This document shows, piece by piece, positions 31,301 through 64,000 of a DNA stretch of 64,000 bases. Below the pieces are notes generated by a model. It ran no database searches. It was not told where the DNA came from and saw only the letters and a program-made list of their open reading frames with translations. The position numbers and the translations under genes were made by a program. Source of the DNA: a virus; IMG/VR virus record IMGVR_UViG_3300010885_020795, positions 84,446-148,445 of that record; one strand, 5' to 3'. Within the stretch, counting starts at the first letter, position 1; every line of letters begins with the position of its first letter.

Positions 31301-31329
31301 ATTATACAATAGACTGGAATTTCTGTCTA
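31301..31329 (-). promoter_or_regulatory. Sigma70-like promoter of the MoxR gene
   Basis: On the - strand TAGACA (31324-31329), 17-base spacer, TATAAT (31301-31306), in the 76-base gap before the MoxR ATG. Confidence 0.8.
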
Positions 31330-31340
31330 TTAACGATTAA

Positions 31341-31499: not shown

Positions 31500-31526
31500 T
31501 GTTGCTTTCTTTGTTGCTAAAATTGT

Positions 31527-31555
31527 ATTATACAACCAAAATGAATTTCGGTCAA
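31527..31555 (-). promoter_or_regulatory. Sigma70-like promoter of the 31.4-kb gene
   Basis: On the - strand TTGACC (31550-31555), 17-base spacer, TATAAT (31527-31532). It lies in a 37-base block that recurs at 31840-31876 with two mismatches. Confidence 0.82.
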
Positions 31556-31565
31556 TTATTGATAA

Positions 31566-31814: not shown

Positions 31815-31841
31815 TGCTGGTCCTTTTGTTGCAATACAAGT

Positions 31842-31870
31842 ATTATACAACCAAACCGAATTTCGGTCAA
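31842..31870 (-). promoter_or_regulatory. Sigma70-like promoter of the 31.6-kb gene
   Basis: On the - strand TTGACC (31865-31870), 17-base spacer, TATAAT (31842-31847). Confidence 0.82.
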
Positions 31871-32158
31871 TTATTGGGTAATTTTACTACGAGTTTTTTG
31901 CACTTTTTTAGCAGGGCTTCGTTTGGGTTTTTCTACTACTTTAGTAGTAGTTTTAGTAAACTCTTTGGCCACATAGTGGGCAATAAGTTCGCGCTGAATC
32001 ATTGTAATCAAATCGCCATGATCATCATTTACAACAAATCTAACCGGGCATCTACCCCATGCACCCGTTTCGTTAAAATCTGCAAACCAACGTCTATGAT
32101 CCTTATTTTTTGCATCGAAGACCACATAAGGTCTTCCATGTAATTGAAGTCTACTCAC
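31871..32158 (-). CDS. Hypothetical protein with basic tail, GTG start
   Basis: A 95-residue protein. GTG is the start, supported by AGGAGA seven bases upstream. The N-terminal 60 residues look folded (RPYVVFDAKNKDHRRWFADF...). The last 25 are Lys/Thr/Pro-rich (KPKRSPAKKVQKTRSK), a nucleic-acid-binding-type tail. A third small gene with its own promoter in this stretch. Confidence 0.6.
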   Translation of the reverse strand: MSRLQLHGRPYVVFDAKNKDHRRWFADFNETGAWGRCPVRFVVNDDHGDLITMIQRELIAHYVAKEFTKTTTKVVEKPKRSPAKKVQKTRSKITQ

Positions 32159-32194
32159 TGTACATCTCCTAATAGATTGCTAACTAGTCCAAGT

Positions 32195-32223
32195 AGTATA
32201 CTGCAAAATTTATTTAATGTCAA
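32195..32223 (-). promoter_or_regulatory. Sigma70-like promoter of the 31.9-kb gene
   Basis: On the - strand TTGACA (32218-32223), 17-base spacer, TATACT (32195-32200), between a terminator and the GTG start. Confidence 0.78.
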
Positions 32224-32239
32224 TTAAATTGAATTAAAT

Positions 32240-32262
32240 GAAAAAGCCGCTTTATGCGGCTT
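32240..32262 (-). terminator. Rho-independent terminator overlapping a stop codon
   Basis: On the - strand the stem aagccgc / gcggctt (seven base pairs, five-base loop) is followed by TTTTTCATTT. The stop codon of the 32.3-kb gene lies in the loop, so the gene end is part of the terminator. Confidence 0.8.
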
Positions 32263-32539
32263 CTTCGTTCTTTTTCCGATATTTGGCCATGGCCAATTCT
32301 CTAGCTAAGAACAATCTAAATTTAACATAGTCGCTGAGTTCTTCATCGGGATCAGCTTGTACTTTATGTACTTGCCTGCGAGTTTCGACCAAAATGTCTT
32401 CATCATCAAAGTCGATATCACTGGGCTGAGTTCCTTGTTTTATCAGCGATAATCTTAATGGATTACTTCTTAGGAGCTTCGGCTTTTTTATCGCCAGCTT
32501 GGGCCGGTGCGCTTGCAGGCGCGGCACTTTTGCTGGCAT
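32252..32539 (-). CDS. Hypothetical protein with uncertain start
   Basis: Up to 95 residues if it starts at the ATG at 32539. The last 65 residues (QPSDIDFDDEDILVETRRQV... to the Ala/Glu end) look like real coding sequence. The first 25 lie out of frame inside the next gene and look like a shadow of its Lys/Pro-rich code. No ATG, GTG or TTG fits between. It may use a rare start codon or a frameshift from the overlapping gene. Confidence 0.5.
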   Translation of the reverse strand: MPAKVPRLQAHRPKLAIKKPKLLRSNPLRLSLIKQGTQPSDIDFDDEDILVETRRQVHKVQADPDEELSDYVKFRLFLARELAMAKYRKKNEEAA

Positions 32540-32717
32540 CAACTTCTTTCTTCTTCTCTGCCTTAGTCTTTGGCTTTTCTACCTTAGGCATTTCCTTAGG
32601 TGTTGCAGGTGCGGAAGCAACTGCGGCAGGTTTTGCAACAGCTTCAGTTTTAGCTGGCTCAGCGGCAAAAGCGGTTACTGCGAAAAGACTTACGATTAGT
32701 GTGGATAGTAGTTTCAT
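32463..32717 (-). CDS. Small exported Ala/Lys/Pro-rich protein
   Basis: An 84-residue protein. It starts with a clear signal peptide, MKLLSTLIVSLFAVTAFAAE, with a likely AFA cleavage site after about residue 18. The mature part is almost entirely Ala, Pro, Lys and Glu (low complexity) and probably disordered. The ribosome site AAGGAGATC is strong. It may act in the host periplasm, for example at the envelope during infection; no enzymatic motif is visible. Confidence 0.72.
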   Translation of the reverse strand: MKLLSTLIVSLFAVTAFAAEPAKTEAVAKPAAVASAPATPKEMPKVEKPKTKAEKKKEVDASKSAAPASAPAQAGDKKAEAPKK

Positions 32718-32763
32718 ATGATCTCCTTGTGATTTGAAACGTAAGCAAATAAATTACTTGCTT

Positions 32764-32792
32764 ATATATATAACGCCTTAGTTCAGCGTTAA
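32764..32792 (-). promoter_or_regulatory. Weak sigma70-like promoter of the exported small protein
   Basis: On the - strand TTAACG (32787-32792), 16-base spacer, TATATA (32765-32770), in the gap before the exported-protein gene. An AACGC/GCGTT repeat overlaps it. The match is much poorer than for the other promoters. Confidence 0.35.
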
Positions 32793-33493
32793 GTTGACTG
32801 TTCTAGCCAAATATTGTCTACCAATTTTAATTTTTTTACCATTTCTTTGGTAGTTATATGAGTTAACAACGCCCTTCTTTTCAAAGTGGTATTATTCGGC
32901 ATTGTGCTGTGCAAGACTCGTGGGTTGTAGATTAGTACATCACCGATGTTCATTTTTGGTTGTATAACATTGGCTAAAAATTCTTCTGTATAAACTCCCT
33001 TGTAGCTGTCTTTAACAATCCAATTTTTTAAATGGCTTCCTGGATACAAACCAGTACCACCATTGTCTTTGTTAAATTCACATAAGGGTACAATACATTG
33101 TACACCTAATAGGTCAACTTCTTCATGCCATTCATCAAAGCGATAGGGACTATCTATATGTGGTTTTACAAATTGATTACCAGGCTCGTTGGTAATTACA
33201 TCCGATACATACACACAATTATTATCGAACCATGATTGCGTGATGTATAAGAGTTGTTGATTAATGCGATGAACACAGGGCCAATCAACAACTTGTTGAC
33301 TCCACCAAATGGCCAATTCTTCTAGACCAGTTAGATCTTTTTTAGGAAAATATTTTGCAGTAAAATCGTGTCCTCGTTGAGGTTCCAATTTATTTTGAAA
33401 AAAGTTTAAGTGAGCTATAGCAAGAGGATCTATTATGTTTTTTACTACACAATATCCTTGTTGCTTGATTGTTTCTAAAATTTGTTGGCCCAT
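32789..33493 (-). CDS. Phytanoyl-CoA dioxygenase (PhyH)-like 2-oxoglutarate oxygenase
   Basis: A 234-residue protein. KPHIDSP gives H112-x-D114 and PRVLHSTM gives H195, with R207 a likely 2-oxoglutarate ligand. PLCEFNKDNGGTGLYPGSH between them is typical of PhyH-type hydroxylases. The length is normal. Such enzymes hydroxylate small molecules or modified residues. It overlaps the gene upstream; the substrate is unknown. Confidence 0.8.
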   Translation of the reverse strand: MGQQILETIKQQGYCVVKNIIDPLAIAHLNFFQNKLEPQRGHDFTAKYFPKKDLTGLEELAIWWSQQVVDWPCVHRINQQLLYITQSWFDNNCVYVSDVITNEPGNQFVKPHIDSPYRFDEWHEEVDLLGVQCIVPLCEFNKDNGGTGLYPGSHLKNWIVKDSYKGVYTEEFLANVIQPKMNIGDVLIYNPRVLHSTMPNNTTLKRRALLTHITTKEMVKKLKLVDNIWLEQST

Positions 33494-33810
33494 AAGTTTA
33501 TGTCACCTTGATATAGTGTAAACTCGAATGCATCCATTTCGTTGAAAAGAATTAATTGTTTCTTGCTCAAGTAATAAGGCCATATCATTCTGTCATCTAA
33601 CATCAATAAAGTTTTGTTAAGAACTTTATACTTTTCAGGAAGTTTTAATGTATAAGTTTTCCAAAGACCTTTTGCAAGATCCAACCCATTACCAGTAAAT
33701 CTTGTTCCCTTGGCGTTCTTAAAAATTACAAAAAATTCAAAATCACTGTCATAGTGTGATTTTAAATTACTAAGAATAGTTTCACTTATCGGCTTTTTTG
33801 ATAAGCTCAT
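33475..33810 (-). CDS. Hypothetical protein
   Basis: A 111-residue protein with no recognised domain. Predicted mixed alpha/beta, with an aromatic C-terminus (YQGDINLWANKF). It overlaps both neighbours by about 20-30 bases, so expression is probably coupled to the preceding conserved phage gene. Confidence 0.5.
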   Translation of the reverse strand: MSLSKKPISETILSNLKSHYDSDFEFFVIFKNAKGTRFTGNGLDLAKGLWKTYTLKLPEKYKVLNKTLLMLDDRMIWPYYLSKKQLILFNEMDAFEFTLYQGDINLWANKF

Positions 33811-34099
33811 CCTCGTTCACCTGTTTACCATGAGATAATTCTATTACAGTAAAATCCTGGCATTTGAATAAATTGTTTAACTTTTCCATTAAATTAAACG
33901 CATGACCTGGATTCGAGAATGAAACTTTTTTATATTTTGGTCCGGGATAATCTTGTAGACTATTCAGAAAAGTTCGTAGGTTAAAAGGCTTGTTCTTATA
34001 GAACACGGCATAAATTGCCTCGGCATCAAGTACCTCTTCGCTTTTGTATGTTTTTGGATCTACGTATGTTAATAATATCGTTGGTTTAGGTCTTGCCAT
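33782..34099 (-). CDS. Conserved T4-like marine phage protein
   Basis: A 105-residue protein. The start ARPKPTILLTYVDPKTYKSE and PGPKYKKVSFSNPGHAFNL resemble, from memory, a conserved hypothetical of T4-like cyanophages. Rich in beta strands and basic. A GATAAATA box and a GGAAGG ribosome site precede the ATG, suggesting late transcription. Confidence 0.62.
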   Translation of the reverse strand: MARPKPTILLTYVDPKTYKSEEVLDAEAIYAVFYKNKPFNLRTFLNSLQDYPGPKYKKVSFSNPGHAFNLMEKLNNLFKCQDFTVIELSHGKQVNEDELIKKADK

Positions 34100-34120
34100 C
34101 AGTTGCCTTCCTCTCTACTT

Positions 34121-34128
34121 TATTTATC
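34121..34128 (-). promoter_or_regulatory. T4-type late promoter variant GATAAATA
   Basis: GATAAATA on the - strand, 21 bases before the ATG of the 33.8-kb gene, in a 51-base intergenic gap. Cyanomyovirus late promoters are known to allow any base at the first position. Confidence 0.6.
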
Positions 34129-34150
34129 AAGAAAGGCATTAACAGGCTAT

Positions 34151-34360
34151 TTAATTTTTAAAACCACCACCATCTAATTTAGAACTTGCTGTTTTTGATT
34201 GATCTATAGACAATTTTTCTGTTGCGGTGATCAATAACGAATTTATTTCGTGCATTAATGCCACACTTTGATTGTAGTCTAGTGTAATAGACTTTTTACC
34301 TAATTTAGCGGCCTGACTGACTAGACCGCTAAACTCTTTAATCTTCGATAATTCTTGCAT
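34151..34360 (-). CDS. Small helical hypothetical protein
   Basis: A 69-residue protein from the ATG at 34360 (a GTG just upstream is possible). It is largely helical, with a Gly/Lys-poor core and a C-terminal GGGFKN. It overlaps the next upstream gene by 23 bases. No function can be given. Confidence 0.5.
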   Translation of the reverse strand: MQELSKIKEFSGLVSQAAKLGKKSITLDYNQSVALMHEINSLLITATEKLSIDQSKTASSKLDGGGFKN

Positions 34361-34811
34361 CACGTTTTTGTTGCAGTACTAGTTTTAGATCAGTTTGATT
34401 TTTATATGGACCAACTGATTCATAGGACTCAACTGTGGTCAATCTAGGACAAAAACTTTGCACCCAACCATTTTTAAACTTGACGCCATACCAACCAGCG
34501 GCATGTACACTTTTTGTATTTGCCTTTTTAGTAAAGCAGGGATAGTCATTGATCTTTTGTATGTTATAAACATCTTCTTGATCAGTAGGGTAACCCATGA
34601 CAGTCATTTGGCCGCCATGTGATAGATCTCTACCTGCAAATTCAATTTGATGTTTACGAAGCTCTTCGGTATTTGTTAGTACTAAGTCTTGTTTCCTTAG
34701 TTTAATAACATATTGACCATCGTATAAGTTCATCATGCCTACACGCGATCCGCTTTCTTCGAGGATCCAAAATTTTTCTTTAATAACCGGTTTTGCAATA
34801 ATCATATTCAT
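34338..34811 (-). CDS. Hypothetical protein
   Basis: A 157-residue protein with beta-rich segments (FWILEESGSRVGMMNLYDGQYVI; WYGVKFKNGWVQSFCPRL). Its ATG overlaps the stop of the Rnh-like gene (ATGA), so it is probably co-expressed with it. No domain is recognised. Confidence 0.6.
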   Translation of the reverse strand: MNMIIAKPVIKEKFWILEESGSRVGMMNLYDGQYVIKLRKQDLVLTNTEELRKHQIEFAGRDLSHGGQMTVMGYPTDQEDVYNIQKINDYPCFTKKANTKSVHAAGWYGVKFKNGWVQSFCPRLTTVESYESVGPYKNQTDLKLVLQQKRDARIIED

Positions 34812-35797
34812 TTATAAGTTGCTCCTAGATAATCACTGTGCTCTGTCATTTTTTCTGCTACGGTTACTAAATCCCATTTACCGCAAAACTTTACAAAATG
34901 TAATCCTACTTGTGATACTTTCGGCTTGTTAGTCACTTGACTAATAGTTTCGTCTAGAATAATTTTAATATCTTCAGGCTGTTGTGTCAAGTCTATTAGA
35001 GTTTTATTATGCAGATATCTGTCACGAACTCTGTGTTCGACACCATTATGGTCAACCCAACGTTGGAGCATGAGATTGTTCCAATTATATCCTTGTGCTA
35101 ATCGATCTGCAAAGGCTTCACGGAGACCAACCTTATTTTTTGTGCCTTTTTCTCGTACTCCCGGATAAGCAGAGAAGACGTTGTCAGAGGTATCGCCTCG
35201 CATACACTTCTCAAATAGTAGCCACTCGGGGTCGGGAACTTCTTTTGCTTGCTTAGTTTTTTTGTCAATGACAGGACGATTTTTCTCATCAAAGACTCCT
35301 TCGAGTGTAGTTAGTTGTTTGGTAATTCCGTTGAACTGCCTTACATTGTGAGCCAGTAATTGATAAAAATCGCTGTCACTGCTGACAATGACATGTTCGT
35401 CATCGGGATGAGTCTGAATAAAACGTGCAATGAAATCATCAGCTTCGCATCTACCATTCTGTAGTATAGTGCAATTAGATTTCTTTTCAAAGAATTCTTT
35501 GAGCTCGTCAAAGGCCTGCCAAAAGATTCGATCTTCTTCTGCTTCCTTGGGTGTAAGTGCCGCACGGGCGGCCGCACGGTTTGCCTTATAATTGACGTCG
35601 TAGTCTTTGCGCCAGCTACGACCTTCGAGACAGATTACAACATGACTACCTTTAAAATCACGCCATACTTTATTGATACTGTTAAACATGATATGATATG
35701 CCATACCAACTTTAGTTTCTGGATCCTCGCCTCTAACTACGTGCCTAGCACGAAAAAACATATTAGCGGCGTCTACTAGCAAAAATGTTCTAGACAT
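34808..35797 (-). CDS. rnh: T4 Rnh-like 5'-3' exonuclease (FEN/RNase H family)
   Basis: A 329-residue protein, close to T4 Rnh (305). Metal-binding acidic residues are visible: LLVDAANMFF (D9), CEADDF (E118, D120, D121), SSDSDFYQLL at 139-148, and MRGDTSDN later with a nearby PGV of the helix-hairpin-helix-like region. In T4 this enzyme removes RNA primers and 5' flaps on the lagging strand. It overlaps a small gene upstream by eight bases. Confidence 0.88.
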   Translation of the reverse strand: MSRTFLLVDAANMFFRARHVVRGEDPETKVGMAYHIMFNSINKVWRDFKGSHVVICLEGRSWRKDYDVNYKANRAAARAALTPKEAEEDRIFWQAFDELKEFFEKKSNCTILQNGRCEADDFIARFIQTHPDDEHVIVSSDSDFYQLLAHNVRQFNGITKQLTTLEGVFDEKNRPVIDKKTKQAKEVPDPEWLLFEKCMRGDTSDNVFSAYPGVREKGTKNKVGLREAFADRLAQGYNWNNLMLQRWVDHNGVEHRVRDRYLHNKTLIDLTQQPEDIKIILDETISQVTNKPKVSQVGLHFVKFCGKWDLVTVAEKMTEHSDYLGATYK

Positions 35798-51891: not shown

Positions 51892-52128
51892 TTATTTGGT
51901 AAACAATTCTGCTTCTCGTTGTCGATTGGACAACATAGTGGGATCTTTTCGTCCATTTCGAACAGCCCATCTAAGAAATTCATCTGCGACATTTAAATCG
52001 TTTTGATTAATTTTTTTAAGTATAGTACTGTTTTGAAAAAGTACTATACCAATGTCATCGGCCAAGCTGGTCAATGCTTGAAGTTGATCAGTTGTCAACT
52101 CTACTTTAATTAAATTTTTTATCTGCAT
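51892..52128 (-). CDS. Small hypothetical protein
   Basis: A 78-residue helical protein with no known domain. Its ATG overlaps the Dps stop (TGATG), so it is probably co-translated with Dps. A TTG just upstream is the alternative start. Confidence 0.55.
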   Translation of the reverse strand: MQIKNLIKVELTTDQLQALTSLADDIGIVLFQNSTILKKINQNDLNVADEFLRWAVRNGRKDPTMLSNRQREAELFTK

Positions 52129-52649
52129 CAAGCTCTATTTAGCTTCAAGGTAGACGTTAACATCCATAGATGTTTGTCATGAGCATCTTGACGATCTGCC
52201 ATTAAGTTAGCAAGGCCATGATTGCCCACTGCTTCAGCAAGTTCGTAACATCTGACCAAGCTGTCTAATACAACACTAGAATCATCTACTAACATCTGTA
52301 TCATAGCACTGGCTGTTGGTATTTCAACTTGATCTTCTATTTCTGCTAGTTGACCGAATCTAGTAAAACTAGCTGGAGCATAAGCACCTAATGTGCGAAC
52401 ACGTTCTGCAATCGTATCTACACTACCATATACTTCTTCATAGATAGTGCTAAACAAAGCATGGTATTGTGGAAAGTTTGGACCTTCTACATTCCAGTGA
52501 AAGTTCTGTGCTTTAAGAGAAAATGCATATTCATTTGCTAAAACTATTTTGAGTGCTTGTACTAATTCATCCATACTAGATTCCTTTGAAATATTTACAT
52601 TATTTAAAGTATTATCTGTGTCATCGGCTTCAACAAAAGTATTATCCAT
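52128..52649 (-). CDS. dps: Dps-family ferritin-like protein
   Basis: A 173-residue protein. AQNFHWNVEGPNFPQYHALF with the following IYEEVYGSVDTIAERVRTLG gives the inter-subunit ferroxidase ligands (H, D, E) of Dps. The N-terminal 25 residues are an acidic Asn/Asp-rich tail. Dps stores iron and shields DNA from peroxide; in a phage it could protect DNA in the infected cell or be packaged. It overlaps the neighbouring large gene by eight bases. Confidence 0.85.
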   Translation of the reverse strand: MDNTFVEADDTDNTLNNVNISKESSMDELVQALKIVLANEYAFSLKAQNFHWNVEGPNFPQYHALFSTIYEEVYGSVDTIAERVRTLGAYAPASFTRFGQLAEIEDQVEIPTASAMIQMLVDDSSVVLDSLVRCYELAEAVGNHGLANLMADRQDAHDKHLWMLTSTLKLNRA

Positions 52650-54105
52650 TGCTTAACTCACGCTCAACTTGTTTAACCCAAGCACTGACATCGCTGGTAC
52701 CTATTTCTTCTACATCACCTACAAAGTCGGCAACACCGTCAATGGCCTGCATAATTCTTTCAGGTCCGTATTTTAATAGTAAATCATGATGGCCGCTTAA
52801 GATACGACGAGTAATAGCACTGACCACTGGATTAACAGCGTCGTTGCTTTCTGGTACTATTTCTTCTTTCTTCAATGCCTGTCTGCCATATTTCAATGAT
52901 GGTAGAACCGAAGGATGCAATTTCTGTTGAATTATAGAAGCAACAAAAGAATTTTTCTTTTCTTTGTTTTCTTTATTGCCTTCCGCCACACCTTGTTCAC
53001 TGTGTCTAATATCAGGATTATCAATTTGTTCTGCCACGCTGTTTAAGTGATCATTGGCCACAGTAATATAACTATACATCCAACCGTCTAGACTAGTACC
53101 TTGTTCTAAAACTTGTTTGATCTTCATTATATTTTCAAGAATAGCATTTACTTCACCATGTGCCATGCCATCAATTTCTTGATCTTCTGTTACACCTTGC
53201 TGTTTGCGACGAGCAAGTTCGCGAGCAACTGCTTTTAACTGTTGAGCAAACACAGGACTTTGACCTTGTTCGTCTTTGTGACTATTCCATAATCTTTGTA
53301 ATTTTTCTGTGGGAACCTTTGACAAGTCCGCATTTTCATAGACACTTTCGTTGTGACTCTTTTTATTTTTATTGTCCAAATAACCACGCTTGTTTAGTGT
53401 AGCCCAAGCAATGTTTTCTGCATCTTTACTGCTGTGGCCTGCTTGTTTTTCGCTTTTTGCAATGTGTCCGGCCATACGGTCTACTTTAGCACCTTCGCTG
53501 ACAGGAGCGCCAGTTAATGACACAGTCCATGTTTTACCAGAACTAGCAGATTTTTTCTCTGCCCATTTTTTCATGTTGTTTAAATAATTACGTTCTTCCG
53601 CACTATCGGCATAACCTTTGCCTATGATAACTTTCCAAGGTCTGCCGTTGATACTAATTTGAATATTATTTTGTTCGTGACCTAGTTCGTGCTGTAGTTC
53701 TTGACGTTTGAAATCTTGTTTTTGTTGTGCGCCTAATTTAGGTGCGTTAGGATCTGCAAAACCATGATTGTAATCTGCTTCATCTAATTCTTCACTGTTA
53801 CTGCTGGTAATCTTTTTAGCTTTGGGATCAACACCTTTGATCATATTTTCTTCTTCATCAGTGTAAGCATAAGCAAATGGTTTGTCGCTGATTTCATCAT
53901 CACTGCCATTGGTTTGTTGTTCACCATCGTGGCCAGCAACATCTTTACCAAACTTATAAAAACCATAGAACTGGTCTCCACTGAGTTCGTGCATGCCTTT
54001 GATCGCGGCCTTATGATCCTTGTGCATGCCTTCGCTCATTGCATGACCTAATCCAGTTTCATTTAGCCATGCATTGTGCTTGTTGGATAGATCATTGATT
54101 TTCAT
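52642..54105 (-). CDS. Large charged protein, possible internal virion protein
   Basis: A 487-residue protein from the ATG at 54105, which overlaps the previous stop (ATGA). It has GHAMSEGMHKDHKAAIKGMH near the N-terminus, then KRQELQHELGHEQNN (an HELGH zinc-peptidase-like string) and segments DRMAGHIAKSEKQAGHSS and IAWATLNKRG. The motifs EQGVAEG and QQGVTED resemble those of other proteins in this region. No family can be named. Packaging is inferred from the shared motifs. Confidence 0.6.
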   Translation of the reverse strand: MKINDLSNKHNAWLNETGLGHAMSEGMHKDHKAAIKGMHELSGDQFYGFYKFGKDVAGHDGEQQTNGSDDEISDKPFAYAYTDEEENMIKGVDPKAKKITSSNSEELDEADYNHGFADPNAPKLGAQQKQDFKRQELQHELGHEQNNIQISINGRPWKVIIGKGYADSAEERNYLNNMKKWAEKKSASSGKTWTVSLTGAPVSEGAKVDRMAGHIAKSEKQAGHSSKDAENIAWATLNKRGYLDNKNKKSHNESVYENADLSKVPTEKLQRLWNSHKDEQGQSPVFAQQLKAVARELARRKQQGVTEDQEIDGMAHGEVNAILENIMKIKQVLEQGTSLDGWMYSYITVANDHLNSVAEQIDNPDIRHSEQGVAEGNKENKEKKNSFVASIIQQKLHPSVLPSLKYGRQALKKEEIVPESNDAVNPVVSAITRRILSGHHDLLLKYGPERIMQAIDGVADFVGDVEEIGTSDVSAWVKQVERELSNG

Positions 54106-55187
54106 TTTTTGGCTCCAGTGTTGATACCACCTTGCCATTTCTTTTCACGATCCCATTTAACTCCCATGGCACGTTCTCTACGATTAGTACCTGCCTTGTC
54201 TAAACGATCGTCATCATGGTCTTTTTCGCTGCCGCCGTAGTTATCTGGATTAGCATGATGCTTTAAACCTGTGGCAGTTGGCTCGATGCGACCTTCTGCA
54301 ATACCGCGTAGGCTGTCAATCCATTCACGAACTTTCTTGGGACGACCACGACCACGTTTTGGTGCATTGGCATCTGGTAGTGCATGTTTACGTGGACGAC
54401 CACGGCCGCGTTTGGTTGCATTAGCATCTGGTTCTGGACGAGTGCGTGGACGACCACGGCCGCGTTTTTCTGTAGCGTCGCTGGCAGGCGCTACACGTTT
54501 TTTCTTTCCAGGCTTTTCGTTGCCCCATTCATCATAGTTGTCTTCGTCATCATTGACTTTGTCACTTCGATAACCGTATTTCTTACCAACGTTGCGTTCG
54601 CTTTCTGGATCTTTGGCATTTTTCTTCATTGCGCCTTGCATACCTTTAAGCAAGTTCATGTCAAGACCTTCGTGCAAACTATCAAAAATTCCATTTAATG
54701 CATTCAGGGAAGTTGCTTCTGCAGGACGATCCATGTCCATGCCTATTTGCATACCACCGCCTAGATGTGCATCTAATTGTTGTGTTACCCATTCGTAGGG
54801 ATCACCTGTACGTGCCTTGGAAATGCCATATGGCATTTCACCATGCAACATGTAATAGTCAAACAATGCTTCATACAAGTCATCGGCTAATTCATCACCC
54901 ATTTTAAAGTCTTTGACTTCTTTGGGGAAACGACTTAAAATGTGTTCCAGTGTTTCTGTAGTTTCGTTGAGTTGGCCTAGTCCCTGTACAAATGCATCAT
55001 GTGTGCCTTGGTCTAAACTGGATTCATATAAACCGTAAACTTCTTTAACTTCCTTGGATTCTAATACTAATAGTTCTGTTCCTGCAAGAATAGTAGCGCC
55101 GGTGTTATAACGATGTGCTTCTACGATTTTTTTAATGTTGACACGCCCTTGGTGTGCATCATTGTCGAACATTTCAAATAGTTTCAT
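54102..55187 (-). CDS. AT-hook protein with 18-residue tandem repeat
   Basis: A 361-residue protein. It starts MKLFEMFDNDAHQGR. Residues about 240-290 hold three AT-hooks, KRGRGRP, in a repeat with period 18 residues (PDANA spacers between them). AT-hooks bind the minor groove of AT-rich DNA. GIAEG follows at the end of this region. An N-terminal half of mixed alpha structure has no known domain. It may be a DNA-associated protein of the virion interior. Confidence 0.68.
   Translation of the reverse strand: MKLFEMFDNDAHQGRVNIKKIVEAHRYNTGATILAGTELLVLESKEVKEVYGLYESSLDQGTHDAFVQGLGQLNETTETLEHILSRFPKEVKDFKMGDELADDLYEALFDYYMLHGEMPYGISKARTGDPYEWVTQQLDAHLGGGMQIGMDMDRPAEATSLNALNGIFDSLHEGLDMNLLKGMQGAMKKNAKDPESERNVGKKYGYRSDKVNDDEDNYDEWGNEKPGKKKRVAPASDATEKRGRGRPRTRPEPDANATKRGRGRPRKHALPDANAPKRGRGRPKKVREWIDSLRGIAEGRIEPTATGLKHHANPDNYGGSEKDHDDDRLDKAGTNRRERAMGVKWDREKKWQGGINTGAKK
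54337..54467. repeat. 54-bp tandem repeat coding the AT-hooks
   Basis: The 23-base core cgtggacgaccacggccgcgttt occurs exactly at 54391-54413 and 54445-54467, 54 bases apart. A diverged third copy starts 54 bases earlier, near 54337. This makes the 18-residue protein period. Confidence 0.85.
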
Positions 55188-55198
55188 AATATTAACCT

Positions 55199-55384
55199 TT
55201 ATTTGTTTTCAAGAACATTCTTTACCATACGAGGTTTACTAATGTCTGTGGATTCTTTTTTGGCCCTTTTGCGGGGCATATTGCGTTTCATAGGTACAGA
55301 AAATATGTTTCCAGCTGGCGCGGCAGCAACAGCACCGCTGGCAGTAATACCCATGTCCTCGGCAATAATTTCTTTTATTTTCAT
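55199..55384 (-). CDS. Small protein with T4-capsid-targeting-like N-terminus
   Basis: A 61-residue protein. It starts MKIKEIIAED, closely similar in pattern to the T4 internal-protein targeting peptide MKTYQEFIAE, which is cut after the Glu. An Ala/Gly stretch and a basic part (RNMPRKRAKKE) follow, suiting a DNA-bound virion peptide. No Shine-Dalgarno; GATAAATA ends five bases upstream of the ATG. Confidence 0.55.
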   Translation of the reverse strand: MKIKEIIAEDMGITASGAVAAAPAGNIFSVPMKRNMPRKRAKKESTDISKPRMVKNVLENK

Positions 55385-55389
55385 AGTAT

Positions 55390-55397
55390 TATTTATC
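55390..55397 (-). promoter_or_regulatory. Late-promoter-like box GATAAATA at a start codon
   Basis: GATAAATA on the - strand, five bases before the ATG at 55384, without a Shine-Dalgarno. It would give a leaderless late transcript for the small targeting-peptide protein. Confidence 0.45.
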
Positions 55398-55419
55398 CAA
55401 TATTAATCAATATTGAAAA

Positions 55420-56733
55420 TTATTCAATGCTGGCCAACTCAGCTAGAACAGGACCTTTTTCAATGTAATTCCTGCGAACTTTGCCGTTGTTTTCTGTTTT
55501 GTGTCTAACAGTGAGGAAAATCTTACCTGAGTTCTTGTCAATGATATCTACTCTTGGATTCTTAGTAGATTCATTGTAGACGCTGTCTAAGTTTATTTGT
55601 TTAAGTTTCTTGGCCAGTTGACTGAATTTAAGAACTTTATAATGACCGCTTTCAAAGCTTACTAGTTCTATGCTGGGGTCATTTAACGTGGCAAAATAAT
55701 CAATGCCATTGATAAATTTACGAACATACATATATTCTTCGTCGTCATAGTCACCACTGAGTAACTGCTTGAGCAACATATCTGCTTGTCTGTAAATAAA
55801 TTCTATGGCAGCATCTGCGCCCTGATCCTGATATATTTCATTGTATTCAGCTTCATAGGAATCTATCAAGATACCAAACTTTGCCCACAGTTCTTTCATT
55901 TTACTAAATTCACTGCCACCCACTTGTCCCATTTGATCGCTGCCTGCTTTTAAGCTGATGTTTAGTTTACGTTTGTCAACACGACCGGTTTTAGGATCTG
56001 TTACATAAACTTCAACGTCTGTTTTACGAGTCTTTTCTCCACTGACTCCATCGCTGACCACATTAATAATGTCGGGTTTACCGTTCATAAAGAAATACTC
56101 GCTGTACTCCTGTGCTCTAGTACTGTTGGCATAGGCCAGCGCACTGGCCAGCAAATCATTTAATAACGGACGTTTTTTTGGATCCATGATGTCTCTATAT
56201 GGAGCCGCTTTTAATCTTAGAGTGAACTGTATTTTATCATTTACCACAGTACGACCTTTGTCTTTTACTTCTATGCTGTAGTTGTCTTCGCCGGTGTTTT
56301 TTAATTGATCTATTACTGCCCATACTTCAGGACCACCAACGTTGCCAATACCACTGCTGACTCTAGCACTTAATTTGGCAAACATTGCCGCACCTAGAAT
56401 ACCTTCTGCAATTTCACCTCTGTTGGCCACTTTATCTGCGGTAAGTCCAGTGCCGCCAAATTCTGCTGTTTTAGCAAAGCTTGACAGTGGTTTAAGTCCC
56501 TTGTTAGTCTGCACACTGATGGCACCGCGTAGTGTACCTTCATCGGCTAGCTGTTGTAGTCTCTCTGCTTCTTCGGGTTTGATCTTTACTTTACTGCCAT
56601 CAACTAATTCAAACGTGCCGTTGTCTGTGATTTTAGCGATAAGAATGCCTAACTTTTCATAGTTACGTTTGGCCAACTCCGCTGGCGACAAATTAGAAGC
56701 TTCTAACAGTGATTTTATTTCAAGTAATCTCAT
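55420..56733 (-). CDS. Large protein with possible PD-(D/E)xK nuclease core
   Basis: A 437-residue protein. RGEIAEGILGAAM (E107, E110) followed by TDVEVYV (D239) and, 20 residues on, NISLKAG (K262) fits the E ... D ... xxK order of PD-(D/E)xK nucleases, although the linking region is long. It begins MRLLEIKSLLEASNLS, like other proteins of this region. The C-terminus is a beta-rich domain (RVDIIDKNSGKIFLTVRHK). A DNase delivered with the phage DNA is one option. Confidence 0.5.
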   Translation of the reverse strand: MRLLEIKSLLEASNLSPAELAKRNYEKLGILIAKITDNGTFELVDGSKVKIKPEEAERLQQLADEGTLRGAISVQTNKGLKPLSSFAKTAEFGGTGLTADKVANRGEIAEGILGAAMFAKLSARVSSGIGNVGGPEVWAVIDQLKNTGEDNYSIEVKDKGRTVVNDKIQFTLRLKAAPYRDIMDPKKRPLLNDLLASALAYANSTRAQEYSEYFFMNGKPDIINVVSDGVSGEKTRKTDVEVYVTDPKTGRVDKRKLNISLKAGSDQMGQVGGSEFSKMKELWAKFGILIDSYEAEYNEIYQDQGADAAIEFIYRQADMLLKQLLSGDYDDEEYMYVRKFINGIDYFATLNDPSIELVSFESGHYKVLKFSQLAKKLKQINLDSVYNESTKNPRVDIIDKNSGKIFLTVRHKTENNGKVRRNYIEKGPVLAELASIE

Positions 56734-57488
56734 AAATCGTAATAATATTCCCTAGGACGATGATCAACCATAACTAAGTTTTTATATTTATCGATACTTC
56801 TGTCCATTAGGTCAATGTATTTATTAACATTTAAGTTAGTATCAAGTGTCAAAATCCATAGTATTTTTTTATATTTTGGATCGTACTCACTGCCATGATA
56901 AGTTCTAACGTTATTCCAAGCAAATGAATTTGTATCATTTAAATCAGGAAAATGCATGGTTTTCCAGGGTGCTTCATCTTCTCGTATCCACAATGTTTCT
57001 CTGGGATTTTCGTCATAGAGTTTAATACGCATGGCCATTGGACAATCTACTAAACTGTCATCATCCCTGTGGTTTAAAATTTTATCAGTGCTGGACCACA
57101 TACGCCATAGGCCTGGTGTTGTCAAAGGAAAATATTCCATTAGTTGATCTTTTAATTCAGGGAATGTACCAAACACATCAACAACATGATTAGTCCATAC
57201 TTCGTCAACTTCTTGTGCGTTAATCGTTTTAAAATGACTGTTATAAACTCCATCTGGATTGGCTATGTTTGCTCTCTTTTTTGTCGCTACAGCACTATTA
57301 TTAAAATACCAATCAACAAACTTTTCATGATCGTCGGCCTTGATGCAAGGAATATCAAAGGGAACATAAAAATACTTTCCGTATGATTTTTCTAATCCTT
57401 CTGCGACCAATGAACCAATAGTTTTTCTAATAGGATCAGCCGATCTTCCCGCTATTACTCTTTCGCGCTGACCTTCATACATAGGCAT
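56730..57488 (-). CDS. Possible 2-oxoglutarate/Fe(II) oxygenase-like protein
   Basis: A 252-residue protein. ILNHRDDDSL gives an H140-x-D142 pair and NVRTYHGSEYD gives H198, placed as in Fe(II)/2-oxoglutarate oxygenases, with a strand (KILWILTLD) after. There is no clear Arg pair for the co-substrate. It overlaps the upstream end of the nuclease-like gene by four bases. The call is tentative. Confidence 0.45.
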   Translation of the reverse strand: MPMYEGQRERVIAGRSADPIRKTIGSLVAEGLEKSYGKYFYVPFDIPCIKADDHEKFVDWYFNNSAVATKKRANIANPDGVYNSHFKTINAQEVDEVWTNHVVDVFGTFPELKDQLMEYFPLTTPGLWRMWSSTDKILNHRDDDSLVDCPMAMRIKLYDENPRETLWIREDEAPWKTMHFPDLNDTNSFAWNNVRTYHGSEYDPKYKKILWILTLDTNLNVNKYIDLMDRSIDKYKNLVMVDHRPREYYYDL

Positions 57489-57491
57489 AAC

Positions 57492-59957
57492 TTAATCTCT
57501 ATGTAAGTCTGGACGGTTGGCACTCAACCAAGCTTTGGCATTAGCTAAATCATCAAATACTTTGCGTGTGACTCCACTGCTGTCAATGACATGATAGCGA
57601 ACTTCTGTGCTGTCGTCTATGCGCTTACGTGTAACACGTTTAATGCCAGGTTCACCTTCCCTAACTGAACGCATACCTTCATCCACGGCATCGACTGCTT
57701 GCCCTAGAGCACTGACACTTTCTTTTTTAGCTGTTTTAGGAAACTGTGTTCTCAGTACCTGTTTTAAAATTGCCTGTGCTTGGGGATTGTTGGCCGGCAA
57801 CATTTCTCTATCTAAAGCATAATATGCCCATGTAGTATAGCTGTTACTTTCCACAGTATTAACACCTGCACTTATATCCACTGATATTAATCTTGCTATA
57901 GATTTTATTTGTGGAACCAAGGTCACAGTATAAAATTTGTCAACGGCTGTATCCTGTGCTTTTTTCTTTCTATCTTCATTTCTAAATTTAGCAACTAATT
58001 TTGTTTTTGCCAAGTTGCTGTTTGTTTCAATATTGCTTACTGTGTACTGTTTGCCAAACTGTTGTTTTACTATATCTTCAACTGTCTTGCTACGTGATAC
58101 ATTCCATATGTAGAATTTAAGCACAGGCAACCCTTTTGTTCTAATAAAATTGGCCGCTGTGCTAGCTGTTGTATCGGATGTAATTTCTGGTTTGTCACCG
58201 GCCAGTTTGACCAATTTGGTTTTATATTCATTGGCGTATAAATTAGGATCGCTGGCAATGATCATAGCACGAATAAAACGACCAGCAGTATTATATATGC
58301 CCGAAAAATCTGCTAGGTAATTGCCGCCGGCATGTCTGAAACTAATGTATTTGCCATTGTAACTGATACTGGCAGTATGTTGACGACTATAAGAAGCCAC
58401 AATACCCTGTAACATTTTTTCATCAACTGTGTTGGTCTGTCTGGGTTTGTCAAATACAGTGGATTGTTTTTTACCTACCTTAGTTTGTATTGCGTTGTCG
58501 TCACTGGTGGCCACTGCCGTGGATAAGTTTTTAGTCACGCTGTCCGCATATCTATTATTCTCACGACCAAAGTAACGTAGTACATACTGATCGCCTAGGA
58601 ATACTGCCAACTTCAATACATCTAACTTTTGTGGTATACTGACGTTGATGTGCAGGCCTGTTGAATTATTAGTGTATAATTTAAGCTCTTGTGCTATAGT
58701 ATAAAACTTTTTAAGAGCGTCGATGGCAGTGGCCGCAGGCAATGGTGGGCTGACAATCTCAGCACTACTTTCTGTTTCTTCATCATTGGGAGATAAACTT
58801 CCATCTGGTTCCACGTACCAATCAGTTAGGTTTTTATCTTCTTCGTGATAGTCATTGAATATGTTTACTTTTGCGCCCATGGCTGCTTGTACTGCTGTGG
58901 CTATTACCTTGGATGCTTTGCTGTAATTTTCATCTTCATCGTAGCTGTCCCAGTAATCGTCATCTTCTTCATCATAGTCATCCAATCTTAATAATTCCCA
59001 TGCAGACTCGGGGTCAGTGTAAGTGAATAAATTATTAAAGTTTCTTTCTACTTGTGCTGGTGTTAATCCCAGTGCAAATCTAAAAAGTTGTGGCCAGCCA
59101 ATGCGGCTTACCATTCTTAGTTCATTTCCAAGCATTTCTAATCTGCTGCCGCCTCTAGAATTAAAATACATTAAACGGCCTAGTCGATTAGCAAATGTTA
59201 GCTGTGTTTCAATACTTTTATTTGTGGGCATCGGGCCATGTTCTTGTTTATATTTTTTTAGGAATTTTTTTCTGTCTTCTTCGGGAATTTTATAATATAC
59301 TTCAAGCACAGAATCTAGAATACCTGAATTCATATATGCCTTAAATGCTTCCTGCATATTTTTATAACCCTTTGAAGTATCTTTTAATTTAAATACTGCA
59401 TCAAAACTCACCGGCTGTAGATTATCAAAGTCTAGATTATCACTGCTGAACGGGCTGTGTTCATCCAAAGCGTCTGCAATTTTCTTAGGAGTCATTCCAG
59501 TATCTTCAGCGTCCTTTTCACTGCCACCCATGTTAACTGTTTCTGCAGGAATACATACTTCAAATTCAAAACCTACTAGCACACCCTTGTCCTGGCCTGT
59601 GCTGATAGCCTTGGCAAATTCTCCAGGATTCATAGGAGCTTCGTCTAGTTCTTCTTCTTTGGTCAATGACTTTAATTTGTTCTGCTTTAACCAACGCTCG
59701 TAGTCTGCTACACTTCTGAATTCTTTCTTCTTAACATTTTGCTTGTCATGTTGATCGAACCAAGATCTCATTTTACTAGTATCTGTTGGATCTTTGGCAT
59801 TTTCATCGCCGGCAAAAAAGTCGCGCATGGTTGCCAAGCTGGCTTCTTCAACTGCTTGTCTTAGTGCAGATCTATGGTCATTGTTATTTTCTACAACAGG
59901 TACCTGAACAGTATCTTCTTTTATTTCTTGCTTGTTTATAAAATTATTAAATCTCAT
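57492..59957 (-). CDS. Amidoligase-like protein, first paralogue
   Basis: An 821-residue protein. GFEFE at 129-133, VEPDGSL, AEIVSPPLP and NNSTGLHINVS occur in the order seen in amidoligase (glutamine-synthetase-fold) proteins. The ATP/metal Glu residues of GFEFE and the His of GLHINVS are the best catalytic candidates. The N-terminal 100 residues are charged and disordered-looking. Family members form amide bonds, sometimes for peptides or cell-wall parts. The other copy is next upstream. Its role may be in the virion. Confidence 0.68.
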   Translation of the reverse strand: MRFNNFINKQEIKEDTVQVPVVENNNDHRSALRQAVEEASLATMRDFFAGDENAKDPTDTSKMRSWFDQHDKQNVKKKEFRSVADYERWLKQNKLKSLTKEEELDEAPMNPGEFAKAISTGQDKGVLVGFEFEVCIPAETVNMGGSEKDAEDTGMTPKKIADALDEHSPFSSDNLDFDNLQPVSFDAVFKLKDTSKGYKNMQEAFKAYMNSGILDSVLEVYYKIPEEDRKKFLKKYKQEHGPMPTNKSIETQLTFANRLGRLMYFNSRGGSRLEMLGNELRMVSRIGWPQLFRFALGLTPAQVERNFNNLFTYTDPESAWELLRLDDYDEEDDDYWDSYDEDENYSKASKVIATAVQAAMGAKVNIFNDYHEEDKNLTDWYVEPDGSLSPNDEETESSAEIVSPPLPAATAIDALKKFYTIAQELKLYTNNSTGLHINVSIPQKLDVLKLAVFLGDQYVLRYFGRENNRYADSVTKNLSTAVATSDDNAIQTKVGKKQSTVFDKPRQTNTVDEKMLQGIVASYSRQHTASISYNGKYISFRHAGGNYLADFSGIYNTAGRFIRAMIIASDPNLYANEYKTKLVKLAGDKPEITSDTTASTAANFIRTKGLPVLKFYIWNVSRSKTVEDIVKQQFGKQYTVSNIETNSNLAKTKLVAKFRNEDRKKKAQDTAVDKFYTVTLVPQIKSIARLISVDISAGVNTVESNSYTTWAYYALDREMLPANNPQAQAILKQVLRTQFPKTAKKESVSALGQAVDAVDEGMRSVREGEPGIKRVTRKRIDDSTEVRYHVIDSSGVTRKVFDDLANAKAWLSANRPDLHRD

Positions 59958-59967
59958 TGTTATTCCA

Positions 59968-62073
59968 TTATGCCATTACTGGATAAACTTCATAGTTACC
60001 ATCGAAGTTATTTTCTCTTGCCCATAGTGCGGCCAATCTGTTGGCATCAGCCTGACTATTACCCACACCACGGAATCTATATACTTCGCGTCCTAGACCA
60101 TCAACCACTCGCCACTGTCCTGTAAAGTTACCGGCCGGGGATGCATTATTATTGGTACTAATAGTTTGATCATTATTACCAACTGTGCCTGCGGGTTGTG
60201 GATTACTTGCAGGAGCTCCGGTTGGTTCAACTGCCTGGCCGCCAACATGCCTAATACCAAACATAGCAGTGGCCTGTCCGTGTTGCAGGAGATGTGGACC
60301 CATTCTAATATAATCCTGTAAATGTTCTAATGCTGTTGCATCGTCACTGACAAATCCAGTCGGCACACGTTCTACACTATTACCAGTTAATTTATTATAA
60401 ATTTCATAGCGTGGCGTATTATCTGCTTGATCGTAGGGTCTAACTGGTTTTGCAGTAATGTTTGTAGCATTAGCCCAGTCTGGATATTCTGCTCGTCCTT
60501 TTTCGATAGCTTCTTCTTTGCTGGTAGCAACAACTTCAACACTGGCACCATAGCCAGGACGTCCCACACTCCACCAATATTTTGTACCTGTTGGACCTTT
60601 CTTTAGTTTACGCTGTAATTGTGCTTGTTTGACAAAACTACGTAGTGCGGCCTGTGGCATTTCACCAGCACTATACTTGGCAAAGTATTGAATTGTATCT
60701 GTTGAATCGTTGCTGGGAGTTAATAATTTATAAAGTTTTTTAGCATATTCTTCTTTGTATTTTGTTTCATCACAGGCGGCATCCAAGGCCACAACAAAAC
60801 GCAACAAGGTATTGGTAATATTTCCTTCGTCGGCAGCATACTCTCCCAGCCAATCTCCGCCAGGACTGCGGAATTCAATATATCCTGTTTTTGTGTTGAT
60901 ACTAGTATATTTGCTGGTAGCTCCACTGTGAATAACTTTGCCAGCCAAGGTCGCTAGACCCTGTTTCATTTTGTCCAGGATAATTGCTACATCATCAGGG
61001 CGTTGAACAATACGTTCTTTGACAATGTCCACAGCACTCTTACAGTATGTATTGCCCAGCCTGCCAAATTTTTCTAGAATGTATTTGTCACCCAACAACA
61101 ATGCTAGTTTCGTATAGTCTAGCTTTTCCATGCTAAAATCAGGAACACTGACGTTGATGTGTAGGCCAGTGCTGTCATTGGTATAACAACCTTTGTTATT
61201 AGCCCAGTTAACAACTTTGTCCAAGTCCGACAACATTTCATCTAGGGGTAAAGGCGGGCTAACAAATTCCAGGCCGCCGTCACTGCTGTCGTCTGGATCT
61301 AAACTGCTGTCTGGTTCTACTACATAGTGTCCTGCTTCTCTGCGGCCGCCGTGATATCTATCGCTGGCATTTACTGGACGTCCTATCTCTCGACTAAATT
61401 CATCTGCTACATCATCAACACTGATACCAGATTCTTGACTATGATAATGCGGCCAATTAATATCATAGTTACTTTCAACATCGGACATATTTTCTATGCC
61501 TTCGTGTTCCAACCAATCACTTTCTAAGTCAGCATTACTATAAAAATCATCACGGAAATCATCTTCGGCATCTTCGTACCATGGACTAATTTGATCTTCT
61601 ATTACTTTGTCCGTGGCCTTGGCAAAATCTTCTTTTGTTGGTTCGGGATACTCGCCGTCTTCATTGTGTTCAAGTTCTAATATACCGGCAATATCTTCGG
61701 CATTGGCGTTTTCTTTTAACCATCGATAAATGACTTCGCTCATGTCCGAATCCCAACGATCGTGTACCTGTTCATCCAGCCATCCATGATAGTCTTCCTG
61801 CATCTTATCGCGAAGACGTTCTACGTCTCTGCGACCATTATAATCACCATCATAGAAAAAATCGTAGGCATCCTGAATACTGCGAATACCTTCGTCGCTG
61901 TCATAGTCTGGCTCAGGATATTCGTCGTTGTCTCCTTGACTGGCACCAGGAACAATCATTTCAAATTCCATGCCAGCACGAGCATCAATGGTAGCGGCTA
62001 TTGTTTTTAAATTAGATGGACTCATGTTGATCTCATCCAAGCGTTGTTCGTTGATAACGTCTAATAATTTCAT
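59968..62073 (-). CDS. Amidoligase-like protein, second paralogue
   Basis: A 701-residue protein from the ATG at 62073, which overlaps the previous stop (ATGA). It begins MKLLDVINEQRLDEI. MEFE at 35-38, VEPDSSL, LEFVSPPLP and NDSTGLHINVS repeat the motifs of its paralogue. An acidic insert rich in Asp/Tyr/Glu lies between. The C-terminal 200 residues add small repeated-looking domains (YWWSVGRPGYGASVEVVAT; QWRVVDGLGREVYRF), not present in the other copy. Confidence 0.68.
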   Translation of the reverse strand: MKLLDVINEQRLDEINMSPSNLKTIAATIDARAGMEFEMIVPGASQGDNDEYPEPDYDSDEGIRSIQDAYDFFYDGDYNGRRDVERLRDKMQEDYHGWLDEQVHDRWDSDMSEVIYRWLKENANAEDIAGILELEHNEDGEYPEPTKEDFAKATDKVIEDQISPWYEDAEDDFRDDFYSNADLESDWLEHEGIENMSDVESNYDINWPHYHSQESGISVDDVADEFSREIGRPVNASDRYHGGRREAGHYVVEPDSSLDPDDSSDGGLEFVSPPLPLDEMLSDLDKVVNWANNKGCYTNDSTGLHINVSVPDFSMEKLDYTKLALLLGDKYILEKFGRLGNTYCKSAVDIVKERIVQRPDDVAIILDKMKQGLATLAGKVIHSGATSKYTSINTKTGYIEFRSPGGDWLGEYAADEGNITNTLLRFVVALDAACDETKYKEEYAKKLYKLLTPSNDSTDTIQYFAKYSAGEMPQAALRSFVKQAQLQRKLKKGPTGTKYWWSVGRPGYGASVEVVATSKEEAIEKGRAEYPDWANATNITAKPVRPYDQADNTPRYEIYNKLTGNSVERVPTGFVSDDATALEHLQDYIRMGPHLLQHGQATAMFGIRHVGGQAVEPTGAPASNPQPAGTVGNNDQTISTNNNASPAGNFTGQWRVVDGLGREVYRFRGVGNSQADANRLAALWARENNFDGNYEVYPVMA

Positions 62074-64000
62074 TGCGGTTTCTTCCAAGCTTTTGCAGGA
62101 ACATTCAGTGTCTTTTCTAAATGTTTAAGCGAAGCATTAATTAATGTATCTGAACTATCGCGTCCCGGTTGCCAGTACCAACGACCACTCTGTGTTTGTC
62201 TTAGTCCCATGGCTTTTAAATCAATGTGACTAAAACTGCCACCGCCACGACCTACATCAAAGAAGTATAGTGTATCAGCAGGATTGCCAGCACTTTCATT
62301 TTTAGGTTTCTTATGATGCTTTTTCATGTTGATGGCTATAGCGGCCTGCTGTGCGGCATTACCTTCTTCTATGCTTTCATTGGGCACACAGTTATTAACT
62401 CCGACACCGCCTTTGATCTTAGTGCCTTCTTTGTGCTTGCCTTTCCAGCACTTGGGATCTAATCTTTGTCGAACACTTTCGGCCATGCTGACATTATTTT
62501 TTAGGTCTTTTGTAATTAACTGTAGTAATTCTTTGGCAGCACCATCGCCCCACTCTAGGCTTTTGATAATAGCGTGTGCGCCTTCCTTGCCTATTTGTTG
62601 AATAATATGCTGTAGTAATTCTCGAGTAACATGTGGTACACCTTTGGCATCACCTTCTGCCTCCGCCACACCCTCGCCTTCGTCTAAGTCCCACACGGTC
62701 CTCAATCCAGATCCGCCGTGATCGCTGAGTAATTCATCAATCATTTCGCTGACATGACTGTCTAATTTATGTTGTGCCGCTAGTCCGGCACGCTCGCCTT
62801 TGGCTATATAAATGCTGGCAACTTTCTTTGCGTTAGCAAAATCTTCGGGTTCATAGCCCAACTCATCGTTTTCAGCTTCATACTCGGGTATATATTTTAA
62901 TATCATTCGACCAATGGTTGGACCAGCATCTGATTCTGCAGTTTTGCCTTGAGCAATATTAGTAATTTGATTTATATCGTCAATTTGATTTGTATTACCA
63001 TTTGCGCCCATGCCTTGCCATACATTGATTTGGTATGCTGGTAGGCCAGTGGCCTGAAGACCGCGATTCATATCGGAAAAATATTTGTTGATGGCTGACA
63101 CGGTTTTAACTATCATAGCAGCCAGTTGCTTTTGATTGTGAGTAGTAAATTCTTTATTGGTATCGAAATACACCTCTGTATAGCCTTGCCCTTGGCCAGG
63201 CTCAACCAAATCCCATCCGTATTTTTGACCAATGACTGTTAATTGTTGTTCAATTCGATCAGGAGTAAATTTTAGGTCTTTTATCAACTGACCTGGATCA
63301 TCGGTGGTAGCAGGCAAGGCTCGGCCATTTACTGTAGCGCCACGAATCCGTTTAGATGGTTGCTCACTGGCATAACTGACTGCAACATATCCACTAACAG
63401 GATCAGGAGTGTTCTTTTGAATAGCACCCATCATTTTTTGGAATTTTGGATCATCGGTTGCGGCTTCCGCCACACCTTGCTGACCAATTTGTACTAACCA
63501 TTCTAATTCATCGTCAGCATCTTTGACATCAAAGAATTTAACATTAGGAATCTTCTTGGCAGCAAACCATTTGTTGGCTACTTTAACCATAAGGGCACGA
63601 TGTTGTGGATCACGAACATCCGGCTCGTAGCCCCCTGTTAAGTTTGCCCATAACGCACTTGGATTACCATTGCGGTCATAACCTAATAGTTCACGCCATT
63701 GTTGTTGTAATTGTTGTGGTACATACTGATCTAACTCTGTGTCACTCATCCACTCTTGACCAATGTCAACACCTTCCGCCACATTTTTTTTACCATACCG
63801 TTGTAGTAAATCTTTACCTGTACTTAATTCAAATGCATCTTTTACATAAGGTCCTAAACGTTCAATAGCACGTTGTTCTATCTTAGGTAAATTTATTTTA
63901 GCATCTTGTATGTTATCATATTCCCCGTATAACACTACTGCACCATCCCAAGCCCATACATAATATTTGCTTGGATCAACATTATACTTACCGCCATTAA
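62070..64000 (-). CDS. Large modular protein with GVAE motifs, 5' end missing
   Basis: The frame is open to the window edge on the - strand, so the gene starts outside; at least 642 residues remain. VAEG, QGVAEA and EGVAEA occur between segments, as if separating domains. The C-terminal part (TLYFFDVGRGGGSFSHIDLKAMG ... GRWYWQPG) is a small folded unit. NPSKYYVWAWDG-like sequence opens the visible part. No family is recognised. Its motifs fit a multi-part virion protein cleaved during maturation. Confidence 0.6.
   Translation of the reverse strand, partial: NGGKYNVDPSKYYVWAWDGAVVLYGEYDNIQDAKINLPKIEQRAIERLGPYVKDAFELSTGKDLLQRYGKKNVAEGVDIGQEWMSDTELDQYVPQQLQQQWRELLGYDRNGNPSALWANLTGGYEPDVRDPQHRALMVKVANKWFAAKKIPNVKFFDVKDADDELEWLVQIGQQGVAEAATDDPKFQKMMGAIQKNTPDPVSGYVAVSYASEQPSKRIRGATVNGRALPATTDDPGQLIKDLKFTPDRIEQQLTVIGQKYGWDLVEPGQGQGYTEVYFDTNKEFTTHNQKQLAAMIVKTVSAINKYFSDMNRGLQATGLPAYQINVWQGMGANGNTNQIDDINQITNIAQGKTAESDAGPTIGRMILKYIPEYEAENDELGYEPEDFANAKKVASIYIAKGERAGLAAQHKLDSHVSEMIDELLSDHGGSGLRTVWDLDEGEGVAEAEGDAKGVPHVTRELLQHIIQQIGKEGAHAIIKSLEWGDGAAKELLQLITKDLKNNVSMAESVRQRLDPKCWKGKHKEGTKIKGGVGVNNCVPNESIEEGNAAQQAAIAINMKKHHKKPKNESAGNPADTLYFFDVGRGGGSFSHIDLKAMGLRQTQSGRWYWQPGRDSSDTLINASLKHLEKTLNVPAKAWKKPQ

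Follow-up and report, generated by a model that had tools for sequence, protein, structure and literature searches.

The internal proteins IPI, IPII, IPIII and Alt of phage T4 start with a short leader containing a basic residue, an acidic residue, two hydrophobic residues, any residue and Glu, and this varied and unrelated cargo goes together with a gp21-type protease encoded in the genome (PMC9026906). T4 gp21 cleaves after L/I-x-E, and ten N-terminal residues of IPIII are enough for packaging (PMC9026906). The ejection proteins of the giant phages phiKZ and SPN3US carry S/A/G-x-E or A-x-E sites, at which a gp21-related protease processes them (PMC5694885). Here we describe a block of genes on the minus strand of the phage record IMGVR_UViG_3300010885_020795 (148,445 bases), located at 52642-64000 of an analysed window of 64,000 nucleotides that corresponds to positions 84446-148445 of the record. 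We propose, with a probability of a little under 60%, that the block encodes capsid-targeted precursors composed of exchangeable modules, and that the seam between the modules also fits the rule of the head protease, the modules probably being released, packaged and injected.

From the N termini and the recurrent GVAE-type motifs, the initial annotation had proposed that these proteins are packaged, cut at VAE/IAE sites and injected with the DNA. All the starts that it quoted were located: MKIKEIIAED in a protein of 61 amino acids (aa; 55199-55384), MKLFEMFDND in a 361-aa protein (54102-55187), MRLLEIKSLLEAS in a 437-aa protein (55420-56733) and, once the TTG start was corrected, MKLLDVINEQRLDEI in a 701-aa protein (59968-62073); the open reading frames (ORFs) had been called with a simple longest-frame rule. 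Further leader-like starts were MKINDLSNKHNAWLNE, followed by Thr, in a 487-aa protein (52642-54105, corrected start) and MRFNNFINKQEIKE, followed by Asp, in an 821-aa protein (57492-59957). A leader-like start was thus present in 6/8 complete block proteins, and was missing in a Dps/ferritin-like protein (52128-52649) and a 252-aa protein (56730-57488). With a leader profile trained on relatives, excluding the window, and scored on the 159 ORFs of the genome, the six proteins ranked within the top 14/159 (Mann-Whitney p = 0.0025). The scores were 6.36 for the 821-aa protein, 6.34 for the 701-aa protein (MKLLDVINE↓Q, the arrow marking the candidate cut) and 4.08 for the 437-aa protein (MRLLEIKSLLE↓A), as compared to -4.7 and -9.6 for the Dps/ferritin-like and the 252-aa proteins.

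A strict leader pattern, M[KR]xx[DE][FIL][FILV]xE, was counted in the window and in 160 aquatic viral loci. Among the complete block proteins only the 61-aa protein showed it in full (MKIKEIIAE↓D), and it occurred in 0/61 ORFs in the rest of the genome of this phage. In the window and the aquatic loci together it was found in 111/1362 ORFs against 0/347 for bacterial control contigs (shuffled mean 0.23); about 80 of these loci were fetched mainly via a module often found after the leader, so 111/1362 is not a general rate. Among the relatives the leader is strongly enriched. The typical leader in the relatives is MRAxEFITE↓A, with mostly small residues after the Glu, and its codons vary as usual, indicating that the leader is conserved as a protein. 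The T4-type leader is clear in the relatives.

A gp21-type protease, expected if the block proteins are processed in the head, is indeed encoded elsewhere in the record (phrog_207, 3e-59). It lies outside the window in a cluster at 29114-34969 of the record, together with the portal, the scaffold and the major capsid protein (MCP). Among the large related records 13/20 had the protease, and all 13 had the MCP; the records without the protease also lacked the MCP, except for one cut near the MCP. In the aligned MCPs of the relatives the N-terminal piece ends at a conserved L-x-E, followed mostly by Ser or Asn (LTE↓SVTAG in the window phage), and by analogy with T4 this end is probably the MCP cut site. 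The nearest cultured phages by MCP were PA5oct, GAP32, CBB and related jumbo phages (approximately 66%). The phiKZ and SPN3US systems are alike in having many packaged proteins and prohead-protease processing after Glu (PMC5694885), whereas the protease and the MCP of the window phage are of the T4-like phrog_207/phrog_138 kind.

The virion proteome of the cyanophage S-CREM2 has been published (PMC10665884). The leader pattern for this phage was fixed before its proteins were examined, but after leaders had been seen in other cyanophages. It matched 5/42 virion-detected and 0/156 undetected proteins (p = 4e-4); the numbers are small, and one of the five matches, gp17, may be a chance match. 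The leader bearers include a cytidylyltransferase (MKNFSSFLTE↓A), an APH-like kinase (MKRFDAFLTE↓E) and a SAM hydrolase. Homologues of the aquatic leader and module proteins were found in 5/25 of the detected non-structural proteins as compared to 1/132 of the others (p = 4e-4). The S-CREM2 virion protein gp160 contains a KKDACYxKVK module and the CW module (RLDPKCWKGKHKEGTK..NNCVPNES) of a 642-aa modular protein in the window (62070-63998; 4e-15). The CW-module consensus gave cyanophage matches at lax E-values that were confirmed with a hidden Markov model, and tblastn with three queries against cultured phages gave zero shared modules. The virion-detected enzymes of T4-like cyanophages (NMNAT/cytidylyltransferase, APH-like kinase, SAM hydrolase, and Cas9 in S-CREM2) thus have the CW, KKDAC and NMNAT-like modules and T4-like leaders in common with the block and its relatives (PMC10665884, PMC9602691), and NMNAT-like proteins are found in virions of other cyanophages too (PMC9602691). 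They differ from the block in the detail of the leader (MKxFxxFLTE), and no QGVAE seam was seen in them. The virion-detected Cas9 of S-CREM2 (OR473000.1, 7704-10313) reads RFASFMAE↓A near its start, and this leader-like sequence may account for its packaging.

The recurrent GVAE-type motifs reported by the initial annotation proved real at five (G/N)(V/I)AE sites, all on the minus strand, but only in three proteins. The full 16-base seam CAAGGTGTGGCGGAAG (QGVAE↓G) is found in the 487-aa protein at 52980-52995, with QGVAEG at 52979-52992. The 361-aa protein contains GGTATTGCAGAAGG (RGIAEG, 54292-54305), which fits L/I-x-E and is without the seam codons. The 642-aa protein has three seams, GGTGTGGCGGAGGC (EGVAE↓A, 62659-62672), GGTGTGGCGGAAGC (QGVAE↓A, 63463-63476) and AATGTGGCGGAAGG (KNVAE↓G, 63772-63785). 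QGVAEG was the top hexapeptide when the non-redundant proteins of the window and 80 related loci (186,454 residues) were counted, low-complexity and query-module hexapeptides excluded. In an unbiased count of DNA words over 1.1 Mb of related loci, words of the AAGGTGTGGCGGAAG type were, alongside the query module itself, the most context-diverse repeats. The 16-mer was present in at least 119 stretches of IMG/VR, a collection with some redundancy among its contigs, from which duplicates were removed by their flanks only, and with many fragmentary records; 110/112 matches were sense and in frame, reading QGVAE (80 loci). In bacterial genomes (257 Gb) its count was about the chance expectation, with single copies per locus that fell on either strand and in any frame. 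Many dispersed copies conserved in DNA could also be expected of a small selfish element that, in the manner of the Rickettsia palindromic elements, inserts in frame. However, the word has 16 bases and no palindrome, is nearly always sense and in frame, and has unrelated modules on either side and no empty site, which makes such an element highly improbable.

What the initial annotation overlooked is that the very bases encoding GVAE are fixed and form the seam for module exchange. In the protein-fetched loci Gly was GGT in 54/55, Val was GTG in 45/55 (background 0.135) and Ala was GCG in 42/55 (background 0.075), GTG and GCG being rare Val and Ala codons there, whereas VAE sites without a preceding Gly had ordinary codons. 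Homologous pairs that are 50-80% identical as proteins agreed at 38-43% of the four-fold codons in the flanks and at 89-93% in GVA. In near-copies of the word the changes were mostly in the Val and Ala third positions or in Gly, and seldom in bases 1-2 of the Glu codon. All copies encode GVAE in frame, as they would if the motif were a protease site conserved as protein only, with its DNA identity a result of recent common descent of the modules. This explanation is already contradicted and hardly credible, as the flanks of the same pairs lost the codon agreement that the word kept, and codons were ordinary at VAE without Gly and varied in the protein-conserved leaders. The codon tests thus rule out that GVAE is conserved through protease recognition alone. 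A translation signal, in which ribosomes are slowed between domains by the rare codons for Val and Ala or by a Shine-Dalgarno-like AAGG or GGAAGG, would agree with the codon choice and with the position of the word between modules. Yet a pause needs no identical 16 letters across phage kinds and need not match exchange points to the base, and we consider this very unlikely. The simplest second cause of the conservation is exchange itself, via homology at the word, and its uniformity could reflect either repeated exchange alone or an enzyme recognising the word. A literature search on GVAEG and on shuffling found no description of the motif, and an Rfam search gave no match within the block. 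DVAEG in a 1627-aa tail protein (L003:2438-7321, record 22438-27321) was rejected as a seam, being part of a tail repeat; this protein contains many TDDVxEGTTNLYFTxARAR repeats.

Exchange at the seam is seen directly when loci are aligned. Among 212 junctions, 33/37 recurrent left modules and 27/29 recurrent right modules had more than one partner. In 48 one-sided pairs the DNA identity reached up to the word end and fell to background level within 1-2 bases; most of the seam word is set by the search pattern, but the edge bases, where this switch appears, are not. In the window, KNVAE is an exchange point with contig L009, with 198/200 bases identical on the left and 12/48 on the right, and at EGVAE the right module is common to L007 and the left module is unrelated. 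The identity switch and the differing partners on one side are those of a recombination seam. The spacing from seam to seam was at least 43 residues (median 76), and the modules delimited by seams had a mean charge of +3.0 per 100 residues as compared to -0.9 in other ORFs, which might be expected for proteins packed with DNA and is no proof of it. No difference in hydrophobicity was found that would mark the junctions as linkers of low hydrophobicity. Seam-bearing proteins of the relatives (L119:3-3509, L140:3032-7474, L071:5285-7444) contain cytidine deaminase, GNAT acetyltransferase and cytidylyltransferase domains. Lambdoid phages have boundary sequences, short stretches in common where modules meet, which seed recombination. 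These are likewise short conserved DNA bordering exchangeable units; they lie between genes or operons, whereas the seam lies inside open frames, in one reading frame, and is possibly a protein cut site.

We suggest that the block encodes precursor proteins for the interior of the phage head. The short T4-type leader ending in hydrophobic-x-Glu, with which most of them begin, would direct entry into the prohead core and could then be removed by the gp21-type protease. The longer proteins would be chains of exchangeable modules, mostly of 45-150 residues, linked by the word CAAGGTGTGGCGGAAG (QGVAE), which would serve as the crossover seam for in-frame module swaps between phages. The seam is probably also the module release point, since VAE↓ fits the hydrophobic-x-Glu rule; a cut there, which we deduce from motif and context, would turn every module into a small protein of its own, to be packaged and later injected along with the DNA.

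Several observations weigh against this proposal. The DNA-level conservation of the word means that protein recognition is not its only constraint. The leaders and the MCP mostly fit L/I-x-E and GIAE does so too, but the inner sites GVAE and NVAE have Val and fall outside the rule described for T4 gp21. With GVAE and the leaders set aside, [LIV]xE was only mildly enriched before small residues and likewise before large ones, so it gives no independent cleavage signal, and a general [LIV]xE-small enrichment was dismissed as a proof of cleavage because it is not specific. The two amidoligase-like proteins (701 and 821 aa) and the 437-aa phrog_3560 protein have zero (G/N)(V/I)AE sites. Packaging in the window phage is argued from its relatives and the S-CREM2 test. 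S-CREM2 is a distant relative, in which many detected proteins of unknown function are without the leader, and its authors considered co-purification possible (PMC10665884). In phage CBB, which is nearer by capsid protein, the two virion-detected proteins examined were both without the leader.

Part of this evidence would favour packaged proteins whose seam serves for recombination and as a linker only, with the modules staying joined and uncut at VAE. The DNA conservation of the word exceeds the need of a protein site, the exchange maps exactly to the word, and Val does not follow the T4 rule. Nevertheless, an inert linker has no need to keep hydrophobic-x-Glu, the Glu codon of near-copies is seldom altered in its bases 1-2, and the leaders of such proteins end in the same hydrophobic-x-Glu-small pattern; we regard uncut chains as unlikely, though the most serious of the alternatives. 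The block could also encode ordinary, unpackaged intracellular proteins with a chance amphipathic start, the seam then marking a hot spot of recombination in accessory genes that evolve fast. The acetyltransferase, deaminase and cytidylyltransferase domains could act in the cytoplasm, and the reliance on relatives for packaging leaves room for this. It is nonetheless improbable, as the leader pattern was absent in the controls and in the rest of the genome, and leader and module homologues were enriched among the virion-detected proteins of S-CREM2. Capsid targeting is supported by gp21, the L-x-E of the MCP, the leader enrichment and the S-CREM2 virion proteins, and packaging has good support from analogy and from the S-CREM2 test.

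The 642-aa protein has its 5' end beyond the record. A gene running off the record start (L002:2-838, minus strand; MNFEDILKKLNTIVAED..) joins it in frame if the record is circular. In most relatives QGVAE is found shortly upstream of this module; it is missing at the record-end junction, so bases may be lacking there. Both amidoligase-like proteins score above the curated cut-off of 22 bits for Pfam Amidoligase_2 (PF12224), the 701-aa protein with 42.1 bits (1.2e-10) and the 821-aa protein with 32 bits (1.5e-7), and are predicted members of this family. The 252-aa protein has a candidate cut site, GSLVAE↓G, at residues 25-31. The 437-aa protein, called nuclease-like, has homologues in T4-like cyanophages and a Desulfovibrio phage, and zero close relatives in IMG/VR. 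In the 361-aa protein the leader-like start is followed by three AT-hook-like RGRGRP repeats, with an AT_hook match of 16 bits that is under the cut-off of 17.4, and then by RGIAE↓G. The Dps/ferritin-like protein adjoins the block on the same strand (Pfam Ferritin 8e-25; phrog_3636 7e-31) and is a possible DNA-protecting partner of it. The peptide FHWNVEG of Dps/ferritin-like genes occurs in approximately 10 non-redundant proteins in the related viral loci. At 1-26500 of the window (record 84446-110800) there is a long plus-strand run of radical-SAM/SPASM-type-looking genes (CPLPFNHLAIRPNGNVYPCC and similar) and sugar- or glycosyl-transfer-like genes, many for a phage, as called by eye from the N termini.

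In comparison to the T4 internal proteins, the block has a much larger set of proteins, exchangeable modules strung into long chains, a DNA-level seam, and Val for Leu/Ile at the inner sites, and its packaging is deduced from relatives. Module shuffling at a DNA word has not been described for phiKZ and SPN3US (PMC5694885). We tentatively propose, at not quite even odds, that T4-related aquatic phages draw combinatorial cargo from a common module pool with a dual-purpose 16-base word that serves as exchange site and cut site, such that every swap would be correctly processed. The DNA exchange site and the protein cut site may then be the same letters. The leader and the QGVAE seam give a sequence rule to find phage-carried proteins across a large, uncultured group of aquatic viruses, and the enzyme modules in the seam chains are candidates for early host takeover or counter-defence. 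The way in which T4-like phages acquire new packaged proteins can thereby be put to a direct test.

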